Source of the DNA: Methylovulum sp. | GTDB taxonomy: Bacteria > Pseudomonadota > Gammaproteobacteria > Methylococcales > Methylomonadaceae | Length of the DNA: 64,000 nt | Direction: 5' to 3' | NCBI GenBank assembly: GCA_028712695.1 | Contig: JAQTQZ010000003.1 | Coordinates: 62,001-126,000, forward strand | Part shown: positions 36,596 to 47,470 of the stretch, in pieces | Layout: each line of letters begins with the position of its first letter | Numbering within the stretch: the first letter of the stretch is position 1 | Translations under genes and position numbers: made by a program | Notes under the pieces: generated by a model | What the model saw: the letters and a program-made list of their open reading frames with translations, nothing else | Databases searched by the model: none | What the model was told of the DNA's origin: nothing

Positions 36596-36913
36596 GTGAT
36601 CAGCAACGCAGGCTCCAATGTGGCGGTGGAAACCACCGACGTGATTCTGGTGCGCAGCAATCCGTTGGATGTCGTGGCTATCGTGCAGCTGTCCCGCGCA
36701 ACTTATAGCAAGATGATCCAGAACTTGGTCTGGGCCACGGGCTACAACGTCGTCGCGATTCCGTTGGCAGCTGGGGCGTTTTATACTTGGGGCGTGCTGC
36801 TTTCGCCCGCCCTAGGCGCGGTGCTGATGGCCGCGAGCACGGTAATTGTGGCGATTAATGCACGGCTATTGAAACTAAAGGCCAAGCCTTATAGCCAATA
36901 CGATATAAATTGA
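36596..36913 (+). pseudogene. C-terminal fragment of a heavy-metal P1B-type ATPase
   Basis: About 106 codons matching only the end of a heavy-metal-exporting ATPase: AGSNVAVETTDVILVRSNPL, DVVAIVQLSRATYSKMIQNL, WATGYNVVAIPLAAG and LSPALGAVLMAASTVIVAIN, including the two last membrane helices. The phosphorylation (DKTGT) and nucleotide domains and all metal-site helices are missing. The GTG at 36596 is not a credible start. A broken gene, closer to Cu/Zn/Cd exporters than to the intact ATPase that follows, so not its duplicate. Confidence 0.85.
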
Positions 36914-36935
36914 TGGTGTAAAAAAAGCGATAGCT

Positions 36936-36968
36936 AGGACTGCCCGTCCTTCGAGGACGCGCAGTCCT
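36936..36968. other. Strong hairpin before the ATPase fusion gene
   Basis: Arms AGGACTGC..CGTCC and GGACG..GCAGTCCT enclose a TTCGA loop, giving about 13 paired positions with a small bulge. The sequence after it (TATCATATTATTTTGG) is AT-rich but not a clean T tract, so it may be a terminator for upstream readthrough, a leader element, or an insertion-site scar. Confidence 0.55.
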
Positions 36969-37009
36969 TATCATATTATTTTGGATTGGCTATAACCTGA
37001 AACCAGTAA

Positions 37010-40000
37010 ATGACCAAGCGCAGCATGATTCCGACACCTGTCCATAGCGAACAGACAAAACCCCAAGCTTGGCACAGCCTGTCCGCAGAGGAGGCATTGG
37101 CACAGCTCGGTGCTGCAGCGACCGGGCTGTCTGCGCAGGAAGCGACCCGCCGCCTTGAGGCCAACGGCCCGAACCTGCTGAAGGAAGGCAAGCGCATTAG
37201 CCCTGTGCAGATTTTTCTCGGTCAGTTCAAAAACCTCATCATTTGGATTTTGATTGCTGCTGGCGTCATCTCCGGTCTGTTGGGCGAAAGCGTGGACGCC
37301 ATTGCCATTCTCGCCATTGTCGTCCTCAATGCGGTCATCGGTTTTTACCAGGAGTTCAACGCCGAAAAGTCCATTGAGGCGCTCAAGAAAATGGCCGCGC
37401 CCCAAGCTAAGGTGTGGCGTGATGGACAAGTCACGTCGATCCCCGCTGCAGGCGTCGTCACCGGCGACATTCTGGCGCTGGAAGCCGGTGACTTGATTGC
37501 TGCGGATGCCCGGCTTCTGCAAGCCGCCTCGCTCAAGTGCATCGAAGCGACGCTGACTGGCGAATCGGTGGCAGTGACCAAGCAACCCACGACCTTGGAA
37601 CAGCGCGATGTCCCGCTTGCCGACCGCGAGAATATGGTGTTCATGGGCACCAGTATCGCAACGGGCACAGGCCGGGCGGTGGTTGTGGCGACGGCAATGC
37701 AGACCGAATTGGGCTGTATCGCCGGTCTGATTGCATCGGCGGGTGAGGAGGAACGCACCCCGCTGGAGAAGAAGCTGGAAGCCTTCGGGCGGGTGCTTGT
37801 TTGGGCGGCGCTGGGCATCGTCGCGCTGCTGTTCGGGCTGGGGTTTCTACGCGGGACAGACCTGTTCGAGCTCTTCATGACGTCGGTGAGCCTTGCTGTC
37901 GCTGCCGTGCCGGAAGGGTTGCCGGCGGTCGTCACCGTCGCGCTGTCGCTTGGCGTGTTGCGCATGTCCCGTCGCCATGCGCTGGTGCGCAAGCTGGCCG
38001 CAGTCGAGACGCTCGGCTCGACCACAGTCATCTGCACGGACAAAACGGGCACGTTGACGATGGGCGAAATGACGGTGCGTGCGCTCTACGTCGCAGGCCA
38101 ACAGTACGAAGTCACCGGCATTGGCTATGGCCCGGACGGCGAAGTGCATTTCGACGGCCAAAAGGCGGAAGCACAACACACGGCGCCGTTGCTCGAACTT
38201 GCGCACGTCATTCTCGGCTGCAATAACGCCCATCTCGTCCAAGAAAAAGGGGATTGGAACGTGGTTGGCGACCCCACCGAAGGCGCATTATTGGCAGCGG
38301 GTGCCAAAGCCGGTGCCGACCACGCGTGCATCGAGCGGGAATTGCCCAAGCATCACGAAATACCATTCGACTCCGACCGTAAACTCAGCACGATGATCCG
38401 CAAGATGCCGGACGGCAAATTGCGCGCCTTCATCAACGGTGCGCCTGACGTGTTGTTAGGGCGCTGCACCGCGTTCTACACGGATACTGGGATCCGTCCC
38501 ATGACGGACGCGGATCGTCAGGCCATCGCGGCGCAAAACACCGCGATGGCACAGCAAGCGCTACGGGTGCTCGGTTCTGCCTACCGTGATCTGGGCAATG
38601 TATCCACAGCCGACCTCACGGCGGACAACGTAGAACAAAATCTCATCTTCGTGGGGCTGTCGGGCATGGTGGATCCGCCCCGTCAGGAAGCCAAAAAAGC
38701 CGTTGCGAAATGTCGCGCCGCCGGTATCCGCGTGGTGATGATTACCGGAGATCATCCAGACACCGCAACGGCTATTGCGCGGGAAATCGGCATCGGCTCA
38801 GATGACGGCAGGGCTGTAACAGGCACTGATCTGGATAAAATGTCCGACGACGAACTCCGCGAGCGTGTGCCTAAAATCGCCGTGTTTGCCCGGGTCACCG
38901 CCGAGCACAAATTGCGCATTATCCACGCTTGGAAAGCAAACGATGCGGTGGTGGCGATGACTGGCGACGGCGTCAACGATGCTCCGGCCATTAAGGGCGC
39001 AGACATTGGCATCGCCATGGGCAAAGCGGGCACGGAAGTGACCAAGCAGGCCGCCGACATGATTATTACCGACGATAACTTTGCCTCTATCGTCGCCGCC
39101 GTCGAAGAAGGGCGCGGCATCTACGACAATATCCGCAAGACCCTGCAATACCTGCTGGCGGGCAACACCGGCGAACTGCTGCTGATGACGGTCTGCGTGA
39201 GCGTGGGTTTGCCCATGCCTTTGCTGCCTATTCACTTATTGTGGATTAATCTGGTGACCGACGGTCTGCCCGCGCTTTGCCTGGCGACCGATCCCGTCGA
39301 CCCCGACGTGATGAAACGCCAGCCGCGCGCCCGCTCCGAGCGTATTACAACCCCCAGCTTTCTTCGCACGATGGCATTTACCGGCTTGCTTACCGGCGGC
39401 GTGGCGTTCGCGGTTTATTTCTACGGGTTGAGGACACAAACTACCGAAATGGCACGTACCGCTGCGTTCGCCGTGCTGGTTTTTGCCGAACTCTTGCGGT
39501 CTTTCGGTGCCCGCAGCGAAACCAAACCGATCTGGCGGCTCTCTCTTTTCACGAATATGAACCTCGTCATTGTGGTTGCCGTTTCTTTCGGCCTACAAAT
39601 ATTAAGCCAACACAACGCGGTACTGGGCCAATTCCTGAAGACTTTATATATGCCGTTCACCGATTGCTTCCTGCTTATCGCGCTAGGAGCCATCCCGCTG
39701 TTGGTGCTGGAAGGGGCGAAAGTGGTGGGTAACACCCAGTTACAAAGAAAGGCGGTTTCAGAAAAAGCGGTTCAGCGGCTGGACCGGAAGACCTATACGG
39801 TTTGGGGCCGGCTTTTGTTTGCCATGAACAAATTTTCGCAGACAGACGGGCCGCAGGCGGCAGCGGCGTTCGCGCACTACGCGTTCTTCTCGCTGTTTCC
39901 CTTGATTGTCCTCATCGTCACGATTGCTTCGGTGTTTATTGATCGGGAACAGGCCGGAACAGCCGTCATCGCTTATTTTGAAACCTACATCCCTATCACT

Positions 40001-40615
40001 GGTGAAATGCAGCGTTACATTTTTGACGCTATCAGTGGTGTGGTTAACGCCCGTGGACAGGCCAGTGTGCTAGCCTTTCTGATGCTCATCTGGGCGTCGA
40101 CGGGATTCTTTGCCACCTTGATCCGCGCCACCAACAGGGCATGGGATGCCGAAATTCCCCATTGGTGGCGGTTACCGTTTAAAAGCTTAGGTTTTCTCAT
40201 CATCATGGTCAGTTTGGCGCTCTTGGCTGTCGCGGTGCCGGTGCTGGCGAAAATGGCAAAAGATTGGCTTTTTCCAATGGATGATTTCAGCGCGTGGGTT
40301 TATGCCTTGGGCACTTTTTTCATTCCTATGGTGGTGGCGTTCATTAGCCTGTGCCTGTTTTACCGGCTGGCGCCTGCCCGTCGGACACGGTTTGCCGAAG
40401 TCTGGGCCGCCGCCTTATGCACCACGGTACTATTGCAGGCGGCCGAAAGCCTATTTCTCATCTACCTCAAAGATTTTGCCACATTGAATGCGATTTATGG
40501 TGCGTTCGGCGGGATCATGGCATTACTGTTGTGGATTTACTTATCTGGGTGTATTTTCATTTTTGGTGCGTGTCTGTGCGCCGCCCAAGCCACAGGAAAA
40601 TCATCGGAAAAATAA
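37010..40615 (+). CDS. P2A-type cation-transporting ATPase fused to a YihY/BrkB membrane domain
   Basis: 1201 residues, about 300 longer than ordinary P2A pumps. Residues 1-~905 are a complete P-type ATPase: actuator TGES in ATLTGESVAV, phosphorylation site DKTGTLT (D344), hinge MTGDGVNDAPAIKGADIGIA. SERCA-type ion-site residues are kept: PEGLPAVVT (M4), NTGELLLM (M5), NLVTDGLPAL (M6), FAELLRSF (M8), so Ca2+ or a similar cation is the likely substrate. A short linker leads to ~925-1195, a full YihY/BrkB (formerly 'RNase BN') domain with AHYAFFSLFPLIVLI, IWASTGFFATLIRATNRAWD and YRLAPARRTRFAEVWAAAL. One open frame, no stop between. atpD follows after 72 nt; related pumps flank N-ATPase operons elsewhere. 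Confidence 0.92.
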   Translation: MTKRSMIPTPVHSEQTKPQAWHSLSAEEALAQLGAAATGLSAQEATRRLEANGPNLLKEGKRISPVQIFLGQFKNLIIWILIAAGVISGLLGESVDAIAILAIVVLNAVIGFYQEFNAEKSIEALKKMAAPQAKVWRDGQVTSIPAAGVVTGDILALEAGDLIAADARLLQAASLKCIEATLTGESVAVTKQPTTLEQRDVPLADRENMVFMGTSIATGTGRAVVVATAMQTELGCIAGLIASAGEEERTPLEKKLEAFGRVLVWAALGIVALLFGLGFLRGTDLFELFMTSVSLAVAAVPEGLPAVVTVALSLGVLRMSRRHALVRKLAAVETLGSTTVICTDKTGTLTMGEMTVRALYVAGQQYEVTGIGYGPDGEVHFDGQKAEAQHTAPLLELAHVILGCNNAHLVQEKGDWNVVGDPTEGALLAAGAKAGADHACIERELPKHHEIPFDSDRKLSTMIRKMPDGKLRAFINGAPDVLLGRCTAFYTDTGIRPMTDADRQAIAAQNTAMAQQALRVLGSAYRDLGNVSTADLTADNVEQNLIFVGLSGMVDPPRQEAKKAVAKCRAAGIRVVMITGDHPDTATAIAREIGIGSDDGRAVTGTDLDKMSDDELRERVPKIAVFARVTAEHKLRIIHAWKANDAVVAMTGDGVNDAPAIKGADIGIAMGKAGTEVTKQAADMIITDDNFASIVAAVEEGRGIYDNIRKTLQYLLAGNTGELLLMTVCVSVGLPMPLLPIHLLWINLVTDGLPALCLATDPVDPDVMKRQPRARSERITTPSFLRTMAFTGLLTGGVAFAVYFYGLRTQTTEMARTAAFAVLVFAELLRSFGARSETKPIWRLSLFTNMNLVIVVAVSFGLQILSQHNAVLGQFLKTLYMPFTDCFLLIALGAIPLLVLEGAKVVGNTQLQRKAVSEKAVQRLDRKTYTVWGRLLFAMNKFSQTDGPQAAAAFAHYAFFSLFPLIVLIVTIASVFIDREQAGTAVIAYFETYIPITGEMQRYIFDAISGVVNARGQASVLAFLMLIWASTGFFATLIRATNRAWDAEIPHWWRLPFKSLGFLIIMVSLALLAVAVPVLAKMAKDWLFPMDDFSAWVYALGTFFIPMVVAFISLCLFYRLAPARRTRFAEVWAAALCTTVLLQAAESLFLIYLKDFATLNAIYGAFGGIMALLLWIYLSGCIFIFGACLCAAQATGKSSEK

Positions 40616-42163
<1,548 letters not shown>

Positions 42164-42165
42164 CT

Positions 42166-42570
42166 ATGCAACAGACACGCATGACGCTTAAAATTCTTCT
42201 GCCCTTTGAAATATTCGCCGAAAAAAACGGCGTGTCACGCATCGTCGCGGAAACCCAAGAGGGCTCGTTTGGCCTCTTGCCGCAACGCCTCGATTGTGTG
42301 GCGGCGCTCTCGCCGGGCATTTTAATCTATGAAACCGAAGCGGAGGGCGAGTGCTACGTTGCCATCGATGAGGGCGTGCTGGTCAAGACCGGCAAGGATG
42401 TGCTCGTTTCCGTGCGGAGGGCGCTGGTTGGCACAGACCTTGCCCAATTGCATGAAGCGGTGAAGCAGGAATTTCTGATCCTGGATGAGTGCGAACAAAG
42501 CGTGCGTTCGGTGATGGCAAAACTGGAAACCGGATTTCTACGCCGCTTTGCGAGCTTCCAACATGAATAA
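42166..42570 (+). CDS. atpC: N-type F1Fo ATPase, F1 subunit epsilon
   Basis: 134 residues; central-stalk subunit. It has the N-terminal beta-sandwich (TLKILLPFEIFAEKNGVSRI, GSFGLLPQRLDCVAAL, then EGECYVAIDEGVLVKTGKDVLV) and a C-terminal helical part. The PEGSFGxLP-like motif is the epsilon hallmark. It starts 2 nt after the atpD stop, with an AGG 9 nt upstream; a second in-frame ATG at 42181 is possible. In N-ATPases epsilon follows beta directly, as here. Confidence 0.92.
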   Translation: MQQTRMTLKILLPFEIFAEKNGVSRIVAETQEGSFGLLPQRLDCVAALSPGILIYETEAEGECYVAIDEGVLVKTGKDVLVSVRRALVGTDLAQLHEAVKQEFLILDECEQSVRSVMAKLETGFLRRFASFQHE

Positions 42571-42904
42571 GAAACCCAAAAACACCTCGAAAAAAACGTC
42601 CGCCTTCGCCGACCAAGTGGGCTTGAAAGCCGCCCGCAAACTTAAGGCACGGCATCATGCCACACCGGGGGTCTGGTTCGGCTTAGGGATGATGGGGCTG
42701 ATTGGCTGGTCGGTGGTTGTGCCGACGTTGCTCGGTGCGGCGCTGGGTATCTGGTTGGACGAGCACTATCCGGGAGGCCGTTCTTGGACGCTAGCGTTGT
42801 TGGTGGCAGGACTAATGATAGGCTGTTTTAATGCGTGGCTTTGGGTCGCCAAGGAAGATAGGGCAATGCGGAACAACAACGGACAGGAGGACAATGATGA
42901 ATGA
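42563..42904 (+). CDS. atpQ: N-type ATPase AtpQ (AtpI/synthase protein I-like)
   Basis: 113 residues, starting inside the atpC stop region (ATGAATAA overlap). A basic, Lys-rich N-terminus is followed by two membrane helices (about residues 45-65 and 77-95) with GLMIGCFNAWLWV in the second and the GIWLDEHYPGGR turn typical of AtpI-type subunits. In N-ATPase operons AtpQ and AtpR are thought to help assemble the c-ring or supply Mg2+/Ca2+; that role is not proven. Overlaps atpR by 11 nt. Confidence 0.88.
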   Translation: MNKKPKNTSKKTSAFADQVGLKAARKLKARHHATPGVWFGLGMMGLIGWSVVVPTLLGAALGIWLDEHYPGGRSWTLALLVAGLMIGCFNAWLWVAKEDRAMRNNNGQEDNDE

Positions 42905-43211
42905 AATATTGGTTTGGATGCTGGCGTGGCTAGCGGGCATGGGGCTTGGTGCGGTTTTTTTCGGCGGCCTGTGGTGGACAGTCCGTAAAGGCTTGTCCTC
43001 CCGACGACCGTGGTTATGGATAGCCTTTAGTTCACTGCTGCGGACGGGCATTGCCCTAGTGGGCTTTTACGTGGTTGCTGGCGATCATTGGCAGCGGCTA
43101 TTATTGTGCCTACTTGGCTTTTTGATGGCACGCTTGGCTGTTACATGGCTGACCCGATTGCCGGTAGAAAACCAAACACAGCCAACGCAGGAGTCCAGCC
43201 ATGCACCTTAG
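42894..43211 (+). CDS. atpR: N-type ATPase subunit AtpR
   Basis: 105 residues from the ATG at 42894, with GGAGG just upstream (an ATG follows directly at 42897). Three membrane segments (about 4-26, 39-59 and 66-84). FFGGLWWTVRKGL and SSLLRTGIALVGFYVVAGDH match the AtpR family, found only in N-ATPase operons. A conserved Arg in SSLLRTG may face the c-ring carboxylate. Overlaps atpQ upstream and atpB downstream (by 11 nt). Confidence 0.9.
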   Translation: MMNEILVWMLAWLAGMGLGAVFFGGLWWTVRKGLSSRRPWLWIAFSSLLRTGIALVGFYVVAGDHWQRLLLCLLGFLMARLAVTWLTRLPVENQTQPTQESSHAP

Positions 43212-43896
43212 CCCCGATGAAGTCATCTTCTGGCAATACGGTTTTTTCAAACTTAACGCCACCATTGTGTTCACGTGGGGGATTATGTTCGTGCTGGCGG
43301 TCGGATCAAAACTGATCACGCGCAACCTTTCTACCGAGTTGCAACGGTCACGCTGGCAGAACCTTCTGGAAATCATCGTCACCGCGATTGAAAAGCAAAT
43401 CAAAGAAGTCGGGCTATGCCACCCAAGACCGTATCTTAGTTTTCTGGGCACATTGTTCCTGTTTGTCGCCACAGCCAGCCTCTGCACCATCATTCCGGGT
43501 TATGAGCCACCGACCGGTTCGCTCTCGACCACCGCAGCACTCGCGTTGTGCGTATTTGTAGCGGTGCCGCTGTTCGGCATCCTGGACCAAGGCATGGGCG
43601 GTTACCTGAAGTCTTATCTGGAGCCAACGGTCATCATGCTGCCATTCAATATCATCAGCGAACTCTCCCGTACGCTGGCATTGGCTGTCCGCCTGTTCGG
43701 CAACATGATGAGCGGGGCAATGATTATCGGTATTCTATTGACCATCACGCCCTTCATCTTCCCGGTCGTTATGACCCTGCTCGGATTGCTCACCGGCATG
43801 GTGCAAGCCTATATCTTCAGTATCCTTGCCGCCGTTTACATTGCCGCCGCCATGCGGACGCGCAAGCCACACACCAAACCAGAGCCCAAAAACTGA
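43201..43896 (+). CDS. atpB: N-type ATPase, Fo subunit a
   Basis: 231 residues, shorter than E. coli subunit a (271). Five membrane helices predicted. The essential stator arginine lies in TLALAVRLFGNMMSG (R164), and the C-terminal helix has GLLTGMVQAYIFSILAAVYI with the usual Gln. The N-terminal HLSPDEVIFWQYGFFKLNAT segment is typical of N-type a subunits. Ends 27 nt before atpE. Confidence 0.94.
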   Translation: MHLSPDEVIFWQYGFFKLNATIVFTWGIMFVLAVGSKLITRNLSTELQRSRWQNLLEIIVTAIEKQIKEVGLCHPRPYLSFLGTLFLFVATASLCTIIPGYEPPTGSLSTTAALALCVFVAVPLFGILDQGMGGYLKSYLEPTVIMLPFNIISELSRTLALAVRLFGNMMSGAMIIGILLTITPFIFPVVMTLLGLLTGMVQAYIFSILAAVYIAAAMRTRKPHTKPEPKN

Positions 43897-43923
43897 AACA
43901 CCAAACCAACCTAAGGAAATATT

Positions 43924-44205
43924 ATGGATAACATGACTATTATCGCGGTGGCCTCCATTGTCATCGCCGGCCTCACGACCAGTTTCGGCTGTATGGGGCC
44001 TGCGTTGGCGGAAGGCAAAGCGGTCGCAACGGCGCTCACTGCGCTGGCACAGCAACCGGATGCCTCTGCCACCATCACGCGGACTTTGTTTGTCGGGCTG
44101 GCAATGATCGAGTCCACCGCCATCTATTGCTTTGTTGTGTCGATGATTCTGATTTTCGCCAATCCGTTTTGGAACCACGCTATCGCCCACGCCGCAGGAC
44201 AATAA
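43924..44205 (+). CDS. atpE: N-type ATPase, Fo subunit c (rotor ring)
   Basis: 93 residues forming a two-helix hairpin. The ion site has a carboxylate on each helix: E30 in GPALAEGKAVATAL and E63 in MIESTAIYCF. ES-T-x-x-Y (E63, S64, T65, Y68) matches the Na+-type signature of Ilyobacter-like c subunits, but the Gln of that site (Q32 in Ilyobacter) is Glu here (E30). Such double-carboxylate rings occur in N-ATPases; a related c17 ring from Burkholderia was reported to be H+-specific, so coupling ion is open. A GGAAAT-type site precedes the ATG. Confidence 0.94.
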   Translation: MDNMTIIAVASIVIAGLTTSFGCMGPALAEGKAVATALTALAQQPDASATITRTLFVGLAMIESTAIYCFVVSMILIFANPFWNHAIAHAAGQ

Positions 44206-44208
44206 ACC

Positions 44209-45018
44209 ATGCTCATCGATTGGTTCACTGTGGGTGCGCAAGCGCTCAATTTCCTTATTCTGGTGTGGTTGATGAAGCGCTTTCTTTACAAGCCCATCCT
44301 TCATGCGATTGATGAGCGGGAAAAGCGTATCGCCGCTACGCTTAAGGATGCCGACGAGAAACAGGCGGAAGCCCAAAAGGAGCGCGATGCGTTCCAGCAG
44401 AAGAACGCCGCGTTCGACCAGCAACGTGAAGCCCTCTTTAGCCAAGCGTCGATTGATGCGAAAGCCGAAGGGCAGCGGCTTTTGGACGCCGCCCGCAAAG
44501 CCGCCGATGCCTTGGGCACCCAGCGCTTGGAAACGCTGAGAAATGACGCCCATAACCTGAACCAAGCCATTAGCCGCCAGACCCAGCAGGAAGTGTTTGC
44601 TATCGTCCGTAAAGCGCTGGCGGATCTTGCCTCGACCAGTTTGGAAGAACGCTTGGGCGAAGTGTTCATCCGCCGCTTGCAGGCTTTGGAGAGTCCGGCA
44701 AAAGCGGGCTTGGCGGCGGCACTCACGGCAGCCGCCGAACCGGTGCTGGTGCGTAGCGCGTTTGACCTGCCGGCAGCGCAATGTGCGCTAATACAACAGA
44801 CACTCAACGAAACCTTCTCCGCAACGATTAAAGTCCGGTTTGAAACCCGGCCGGAGGTGATCAGTGGCATCGAACTGGCTGCGAACGGCTGGAAAATCGC
44901 TTGGAGCATTGCGGATTATATGGCTGAGTTGGAAAAAAGCGTTGGCAAACTCATTAAAGACCAGCTCAAACCCGAAGATAAGCCAGAAAACAAAGAGGCC
45001 TCCGAGGTGGTGGAATGA
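44209..45018 (+). CDS. atpF: N-type ATPase, Fo subunit b with fused delta-like domain
   Basis: 269 residues, far longer than an ordinary b subunit (~156). One N-terminal membrane helix ([20 protein letters not shown]), then a long charged coiled coil ([20 protein letters not shown] and on), then from about residue 165 a delta-like globular part ([52 protein letters not shown]). The operon has no separate atpH, so this fused part is expected to serve as delta. Starts 3 nt after atpE; overlaps atpA by 4 nt. Confidence 0.92.
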
Positions 45019-46583
45019 GCAGGCCGCCAGATTCCTTGCAGCGTGTCTTCGATAATGCGTTCGCAGCAATAAGCCAAGCGCGTGACGCCTTCGTGCCGCA
45101 AATCAAACCGCACGAGGTGGGCACAATCATGAACGTTTCCACCGGTATCGCCAAAGTCTCAGGTCTTCCGGGTGTGGGCTATGACGAGTTGGTGAAATTT
45201 CCAGGCGATGTGTATGGGATTGCATTCAATGTGGACGAGGATGAAATCGGCGTCGTGCTGCTTGGCGAATATTGGCATTTGCACGCCGGTGATGAAGTCC
45301 TGCGCACTGGCAGGGTGATGGACGTGGCTGTGGGTGACGGCTTGTTGGGCCGCGTCATCGACCCGCTCGGCCGCCCGCTCGATGGCGAAGGGCCGGTGGC
45401 CTCGACTAAACGTTTGCCCATCGAACGGCCCGCTGCACCGATTATGGATAGGGCGCCAGTCACCGTGCCACTGCAAACTGGCCTCAAAGCGATTGATGCG
45501 CTCATTCCCATCGGCCGTGGGCAGCGGGAACTAATTTTGGGCGACCGGCAAATCGGTAAAACCGCTATTGCGCTCGACACCATCCTTAACCAACGCGACC
45601 AAAATGTGCTGTGCGTTTATTGCGCCATTGGCCAGCGTGCGTCCTCTGTGGCGAAGGCGGTCGCCACTTTGCGGGAAAAAGGCGCACTGGATTACACGGT
45701 CATCGTGGTGACTGAAGGCAATGACCCGCCAGGCCTCGCTTATATCGCCCCTTACGCCGCGACCAGCATTGCCGAGCATTTTATGGAAGCGGGCCGGGAC
45801 GTGCTGATCGTCTATGACGACCTTACCCAACACGCCCGAGCTTACCGCGAGATTTCCCTGCTGCTTCGAAGGCCGCCCGGTCGGGAAGCTTTTCCCGGCG
45901 ACATTTTCTATATCCATTCGCGGTTGTTGGAACGGGCGACCCACCTGTGCAAAGAGCTTGGCGGGGGTTCGCTGACCGCCTTGCCTATCATCGAAACGGA
46001 AGCGCAGAACATTTCCGCCTACATTCCGACCAATCTGATTTCCATCACGGACGGGCAAATCTACCTTTCCCCGGCATTGTTTGAATTAGGCGTACTGCCT
46101 GCGGTCGATGTCGGCAAATCCGTTTCGCGCGTGGGCGGCAAGGCGCAACGGGCGGCTTACCGCGCTGTGGCAGGTGACCTTAAGCTTGCCTATGCGCAGT
46201 TTGAAGAACTCGAAACCTTTGCCCGCTTTGGCGCCCGCTTGGATGACAACACCCGCAAATCTATCGAGCATGGGCGGCGCATCCGTGCCTGCCTTAAGCA
46301 GCCCGAATTCGCCCCTGTGTCCGTGTCCGCCCAAATCGCCATCCTGCTGGCGTTGACGGCGGAGCTTTTCGATGCGTTGCCACTAGCCCAGATGACAGAC
46401 GCCGAGCATGCCGTCATAGCAGCCGCTGCAAATATCCCCATCGAGGTGTGCAAGCGTTTGTACACTGCCGAAAAACTGGGTGATGAGGATCGTAAAGCCA
46501 TCATCGAAATTGCCCGTCTAGCGCTCGTCCAATTTCAGCCCGCCCCTAAACCAAAACCCATCGCACATAAGGAAAACGCATGA
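45015..46583 (+). CDS. atpA: N-type F1Fo ATPase, F1 subunit alpha
   Basis: 522 residues. Walker A at 176-183 is GDRQIGKT; the regulatory/binding region reads [20 protein letters not shown], and the arginine finger lies in the SISDGQIYL-like block ([20 protein letters not shown]). The start (ATG at 45015) overlaps the atpF stop by 4 nt, and the stop overlaps atpG by 4 nt, so the F-A-G genes are tightly coupled. Confidence 0.96.
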
Positions 46584-47470
46584 GCGGCTCCATGGCGAGC
46601 CTGCGCCGGAAGATCAATAGTGCCGGTGACCTCCAATCCGTTGTCCGCACCATGAAGGCCTTGGCCGCCTCAAGCATCGGCCAATACGAGCAGTCGGTAC
46701 ATGCGTTGGCTGACTACTACCGGACGGTGGAGCTGGGATTGGGCGTCTGCTTCCGATTAAGCACGCCAGGCGCTATAAGGCCAGAACAGGCAAGACAAAC
46801 CACGCAGAACACCATTGGCGCCATCGTGTTTGGGTCTGACCAAGGGTTGGTCGGCCAGTTTAATGAGGTGGTGGCCGAGTATGCGCTTAAGACGCTTGCG
46901 GCACTGCCCGGCACACCCCAAGTCTGGGCTGTTGGTGAACGCGTCCATGCCCATTTGGAAGACGCAGGTATGCCGCTAATGGGGCTCTTTGCGGTGCCGA
47001 CGTCTGTCAAGGCAATCACCCCGCTCGTCGGGCAGCTTATTGTGGAGAGCGAAACAAACCACGGACAGGGCGAGGTCACCGAGCTCCTCCTTTTTTATAA
47101 CCGCCCCACGTTGGGGGTAGTTTATGCGCCCGTCAACCAGCGCTTGCTGCCATTGGATGACAGCTGGCGAAAAGGGCTGGCGGAACAGCCTTGGCCGACG
47201 AAGAATTTGCCGGAAGTTATGATGGATGCGACTGGGGCGCTACGGGCGTTGATCAGCGAATATCTTTTTGTCTCACTGTTCCGTGCATGCGCCGAATCCT
47301 TGGCGAGCGAAAACGCGAGCCGCTTGGCGGCAATGGAACGCGCCGACAAGAATATCGATGACTTGCTGGAGCATTTCCACGCGACTTTCCACCGTTTGCG
47401 CCAGACTGGTATTGACGAAGAACTGTTTGATGTGATCTCCGGCTATGAAGCACTGGCACAAGAAAAGTAG
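46580..47470 (+). CDS. atpG: N-type F1Fo ATPase, F1 subunit gamma
   Basis: 296 residues, the central shaft. N-terminal helix [20 protein letters not shown] followed by MKALAASS, the middle fold with [16 protein letters not shown], and the C-terminal helix [20 protein letters not shown], the conserved gamma signature. Last gene of the operon; no convincing terminator is seen after it. A transposase scrap lies 30 nt further on. Confidence 0.93.

Follow-up and report, generated by a model that had tools for sequence, protein, structure and literature searches.

At position 37,010 of the window, the whole 64,000-nucleotide stretch of DNA analysed here, a gene begins that joins a P2A-type cation ATPase to a YihY/BrkB membrane domain in one chain. 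It is preceded by the remnant of a copper-type pump gene and followed by an operon for an N-type ATPase, with the features arranged as follows:

36596..36913, + strand: C-terminal scrap of a copper-type P1B ATPase, matching residues 609-700 of the 701-aa copy in genome G033 at 89%
37010..40615, + strand: fusion gene (P2A-type ATPase, linker and BrkB), 1201 aa, ATG start, TAA stop
37070..39724, + strand: P2A ATPase half, residues 21-905, by Pfam
38039..38041, + strand: codon of D344, in DKTGT, present in all nine fusions known here
39725..39823, + strand: linker, residues 906-938, variable and basic, by alignment, dN/dS and charge count
39824..40612, + strand: BrkB half, residues 939-1201 (Pfam match 944-1192), with six predicted helices
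40688..42163, + strand: atpD, beta subunit of the N-type ATPase, named from gene order and similarity
42160..47470, + strand: atpC, Q, R, B, E, F, A and G, the rest of the N-ATPase operon, named (except AtpR) from gene order and similarity

The copper-pump scrap matched no Pfam family on its own; the full copy in G033 passes NCBIfam TIGR01511. An inverted repeat, AGGACTGC...GCAGTCCT, occupies window positions 36935-36969 just 5' of the fusion gene, with no T run after it. The start of atpD is probably the ATG at 40688, 72 bases past the stop of the fusion, rather than a GTG at 40634. AtpR, whose Pfam match (window 42912-43157) is over the cut-off, was used as the mark of an N-ATPase, and the c subunit of the operon (window 43924-44205) contains an EST..Y stretch, a pattern presumably tied to Na+ binding.

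The two halves of the protein

No stop codon interrupts the 1201 residues encoded at window 37010-40615. In the pump half, Pfam recognizes Cation_ATPase_N (21-88), E1-E2_ATPase (127-322), Cation_ATPase (404-488), Hydrolase (546-665) and Cation_ATPase_C (735-905), and the motifs PEGLP, NTGE and NLVTDG fall at 301-305, 719-722 and 747-752, respectively. The BrkB half matches Virul_fac_BrkB (PF03631) at 944-1192 with 156.5 bits against a cut-off of 33.7, and also passes the YihY model TIGR00765 of NCBIfam (109.9 bits against 73.15). The preliminary description had read a single open frame joining a complete SERCA-like pump to a full YihY/BrkB domain, and the frame, the Pfam matches and the motifs are all as it stated. 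The linker is indeed free of stops, but it measures about 33 residues (906-938) and not the roughly 20 first proposed.

The pump half belongs with the P2A Ca2+-ATPases LMCA1 (Listeria), SPCA1/PMR1 and SERCA, sharing with them the full P-type core, DKTGT and PEGLP, and differing from them by its C-terminal BrkB domain. Its closest solved relatives are LMCA1 (38% identity in a fold match), SPCA1 (34–35%) and SERCA. The nearest NCBIfam models are the PMR1-type and SERCA-type Ca2+ ATPases, although neither equivalog cut-off is reached (679.8 against 798.3 for the PMR1 type and 632.7 against 703.4 for the SERCA type). DKTGT, with D344 as what we take to be the phosphorylated aspartate, and PEGLP are kept in all nine fusions. 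E302, D344, N719, E722, N747, T750, D751 and E827, presumably the catalytic and SERCA-type ion-site (site I/II) positions, are all kept in eight of the nine, while the ninth carries G at 719. In printed alignments LMCA1 has A, N and R at 722, 750 and 827, and SPCA1 has A, M and D, so the fusion pump differs from both in possessing E722, T750 and E827. The cargo exported would most likely be Ca2+, or else another cation.

Hydropathy of the BrkB half gives six helices, and loop charges, including nine K/R in the 51-residue loop that contains the linker, place both of its predicted ends inside the cell. A six-helix membrane bundle with its ends inside is a trait of the YihY/BrkB family. The predicted structure of the BrkB half is helical (pLDDT 85.5), whereas the full-length model reaches only 66.4, falls below 50 in the linker and the last pump helices, and is too poor for any contact between pump and BrkB to be read from it. 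The predicted topology accords with a fused chain. A sequence search of solved structures gave no BrkB match, and Foldseek with the BrkB model gave none at E 0.001 or better, only weak look-alikes.

YihY/BrkB proteins are widespread: of 229 genomes sampled from the class, 172 have one, and the longest BrkB frame among the matches listed there has 767 aa. The subfamily found in the fusion is only about 20% identical to the ordinary YihY/BrkB copy of the same genome on contig C59. It resembles the family at large (PF03631, TIGR00765) in passing both cut-offs and in its six predicted helices, and differs in being fused and often lying beside phosphoketolase. To our knowledge, the function of YihY/BrkB proteins is unsettled. 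Among the papers listed by full-text searches on BrkB/YihY or on methanotrophs with P-type pumps, none describes such a fusion, with subscription papers and domain-architecture databases outside their scope. Two plant papers listed for YihY do not contain the word in their main text. YihY does appear in a table of predicted structures in eLife (PMC4602095).

Recurrence, selection and history

When the same two-domain order was sought among 237 genomes of the family (Methylococcales methanotrophs), eight further fusions were found, so that the whole fusion is present in nine: G000 (that of the window), G076, G101, G162, G174, G183, G209, G210 and G212. The eight are 63–79% identical to the window protein over its full length, the nine frames have 1201–1248 aa, and the set is spread over five genus codes (g1, g6, g11, g12 and g16). 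Clearly, the fusion is genuine and conserved. A missed frameshift, a read-through or a chimeric assembly is ruled out by the eight further whole fusions and can be given practically no credence, since the nine genomes include three separately titled records, Methylomonas lenta R-45370, Methylomonas sp. FW.007 and Ca. Methylobacter titanis. The BrkB half alone matched 20 of the 237 family genomes (E 1e-30 or better) and none of 397 other genomes in the phylum sample at a threshold of 1e-20; the pump half matched none of 298 genomes in the phylum sample at 1e-290. Viral contigs contained no relative, and the 41 plasmid records that matched were all below 60% identity (the listed 20 below 30%), none of them covering 80% of the query.

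Selection was gauged as dN/dS, from counted synonymous and non-synonymous changes in eight pairs of fusions. Values of 0.10–0.16 for the pump and 0.09–0.30 for BrkB indicate purifying selection on each, and both halves are therefore maintained inside the fused chain. For the linker, three pairs among G162, G174 and G076 gave 0.48–0.75; its relaxation rests on these three, because three of the other five were undefined and two had low values (0 and 0.16), with few changes to count.

Across named genomes, 91 BrkB relatives were found and 80 of them listed; they span many phyla, among them Elusimicrobiota, Ignavibacteriota, Nitrospinota and Planctomycetota. Four of those 80 (L064, L065, L067 and L136) are whole fusions and L062 is the rear portion of a split fusion; all five come from the family of the window. 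The other 75 were not seen fused, with three cut by a contig end (L081, L101 and L135) and two short or broken (L133 and L139). Two long BrkB frames, L123 and L128, were not counted as fusions; judged by eye, they look like GC-rich out-of-frame extensions.

In a BrkB tree of 84 rows (L133, L135 and L139 left out), ten fused rows, counting L062, and 11 others form a 21-row group with support 97/99. That tree needs four changes, three being forced by starred branches, and fused G183 pairs with unfused G167. The pump tree holds a 12-row group (support 100/99) made up of the nine fused pumps, the unfused pump of G147, the split one of G079 and a Holophagales pump, which pairs with fused G183; this tree is rooted at its midpoint and has one long branch. 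One early fusion followed by later losses would fit these trees, although there may have been two or more separate fusions.

The halves also come apart. In G147, nested within the fused set of the pump tree, the pump stands alone with its own C-terminus and is followed by a DUF2254 protein, while G033 has a BrkB gene with only an N-terminal pump scrap before it, in another frame. Because of these two cases, the tether is evidently not needed everywhere. In G079 an insertion of about 10 kb (L172:5056-14857) splits the fusion gene, and close to each end lies a similar-looking frame of 328 aa, an arrangement like that of a composite transposon.

A closer approach of the two genes short of fusion is seen in three loci where the BrkB start overlaps the end of a P-type ATPase gene by 23 bases:

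L102:6922-10174: MgtA-type ATPase, then BrkB
L139:7711-10153: copper-type ATPase, then BrkB
L108:3-2292: P2A ATPase, then BrkB

The last of these, from Holophagales, is an unfused pair in which the BrkB frame opens out of frame with the pump before the pump's stop; the pump, cut by the contig end, is 76% identical over 452-905. The BrkB frames of L108 and L139 have a similar start.

Two other kinds of fusion bear comparison:

L052:8526-10841, - strand: NhaA-BrkB, 771-aa frame, genome G081, with NhaA matching its whole Pfam profile (428 bits)
L159, L160 and L163 (G036, G173 and G083): P2A and copper-type P1B ATPases in one frame of 1672-1677 aa

The G081 frame runs from NhaA, in the pump's place, through the last helix of a P-type pump to BrkB. 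It thus sets the same BrkB subfamily on a cation transporter and keeps the pump's last helix, but the transporter is a secondary antiporter, not an ATPase. Should that helix span the membrane, BrkB would be inverted relative to the pump fusion. Its BrkB is under purifying selection (dN/dS 0.20–0.22), and none of 40 relatives searched shares the architecture. The double pumps, like the fusion, attach a membrane protein to the C-terminus of a P2A pump, one related to the fusion's own at 54–55%, but the partner is a copper-type pump and not BrkB. The two that were scanned, from G036 and G083, contain two E1-E2 stretches together with heavy-metal-binding domains.

Neighbouring genes and the N-ATPase

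The place of the fusion gene directly before an N-ATPase operon had suggested a joint ion circuit. Co-occurrence upholds part of that proposal: AtpR is found in 42 of the 237 family genomes and in all nine with the fusion (Fisher 8e-8, ignoring kinship), as well as in 18 of the 20 with a BrkB match (Fisher 1e-13, again ignoring kinship). Adjacency, however, fails as a sign, for the fusion adjoins the operon in one genome of the nine, that of the window. In G076, G183, G209 and G210 fusion and AtpR share a contig but are 0.12–2.8 Mb apart; in G101, G162, G174 and G212 they sit on separate contigs of draft assemblies, whose breaks leave some room. A conserved adjacency was accordingly rejected. 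In G033 the order is copper-type pump, PRC, pump scrap, BrkB, phosphoketolase, DUF389 and N-ATPase. Because phosphoketolase and DUF389 intervene there, the window, with its copper-pump scrap, fusion and N-ATPase in close succession, looks like a G033-like island shortened by local deletion.

Phosphoketolase is the commonest direct neighbour of BrkB. Same-strand direct neighbours of the named BrkB loci numbered 65 upstream and 57 downstream, and 48 and 46 of them were scanned, leaving aside frames that were short or nearly duplicate and one of 2892 aa; L139, with its copper-type pump upstream, was outside the set. Downstream, 11 of 46 were phosphoketolases and one was a P-type ATPase; upstream, the 48 included two P-type cation ATPases, five class-III aminotransferases, three acetate kinases and three PRC-barrel proteins. 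In four of the nine genomes (G101, G209, G210 and G212) the fusion gene shares 4 bases with a phosphoketolase gene, and phosphoketolase was present in all 18 genomes checked. The suggestion that BrkB has a role in cation handling or in partnering P-type pumps accordingly receives a mixed answer: BrkB is fused to a P2A pump in nine genomes and to NhaA in one, and its start overlaps three P-type pump genes, but such pumps are rare among its scanned neighbours, where phosphoketolase leads.

An FNR/Anr box, scanned for with what we assume to be its consensus, was absent, at up to two mismatches, from a 600-base stretch upstream of the fusion gene in the window. Matches occurred in four of 13 loci, against a background of 59 in the 64 kb of the window, and the box was dropped as a sign of low-oxygen control.

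What the tether might do

The best explanation, offered tentatively, is a selected two-module protein in which the pump is tethered to a BrkB membrane partner. The front half would be an ATP-driven cation exporter working through the usual phospho-aspartate cycle, with the six-helix BrkB module kept beside it by a basic cytosolic linker. Such a chain may have arisen by the joining of neighbouring, overlapping genes, and its tether would keep pump and BrkB in a 1:1 ratio at a single membrane site. As a membrane partner, whether a kind of permease or a stabiliser, BrkB could then act in the same physiology of low energy or ion stress. We infer the cargo ion, the direct functional partnership and the low-energy setting. 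Counted in favour of a tethered partner are the recurrence, the selection on both halves, the conserved ion sites, the topology, the overlapping pair of L108 and the NhaA-BrkB protein; counted against it are the separation in G147 and G033, the split gene of G079, the scarcity of standalone BrkB genes beside cation pumps, the small number of pairs behind the linker's relaxation, the poor full-length model and the inverted BrkB that NhaA-BrkB would have if its pump helix spans the membrane.

A somewhat unlikely alternative is that two independent proteins were joined by an accident of tight gene packing, where one small indel suffices to fuse them; each half would go on with its own task and the tether would be neutral. 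The out-of-frame overlap in L108 and those of L102 and L139 would lend themselves to such an accident, the double pumps demonstrate in-frame joining of a related P2A pump to something else, and the halves have been lost separately. Against a neutral tether count the persistence of the fused form in five genus codes and a linker whose reading frame stays open even as its sequence changes.

It is also conceivable, if unlikely, that BrkB is a built-in regulatory subunit that alters the ion affinity or turnover of the pump, in the manner of the beta subunit of Na,K-ATPase or of phospholamban. That BrkB is fused to cation transporters of two types, P2A and NhaA, and that both halves are under selection, would suit a regulatory subunit. 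Yet the pump is alone in G147, 75 of the 80 listed relatives of BrkB were not seen fused (three of them cut by a contig end), few of those scanned have a pump directly beside them, and the interface model is unreliable.

Finally, and with a smaller probability still, this BrkB subfamily could serve cation transporters in general as a partner module, attached to a P2A pump or to NhaA; with the pump and the N-ATPase it would form a membrane unit holding ion gradients on phosphoketolase-derived ATP in methanotrophs. If true, a general partner module would give a function to one branch of YihY/BrkB. A natural fusion to a readily assayed enzyme offers a handle on YihY/BrkB function, and natural controls exist in the pump alone, BrkB alone, the overlapping pair and NhaA-BrkB.

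As a minor observation on the double pumps, 5688-base stretches of G036 (L159) and G173 (L160), which carry different genus codes, differ at a single base, and this near-identity may reflect recent transfer or contamination.
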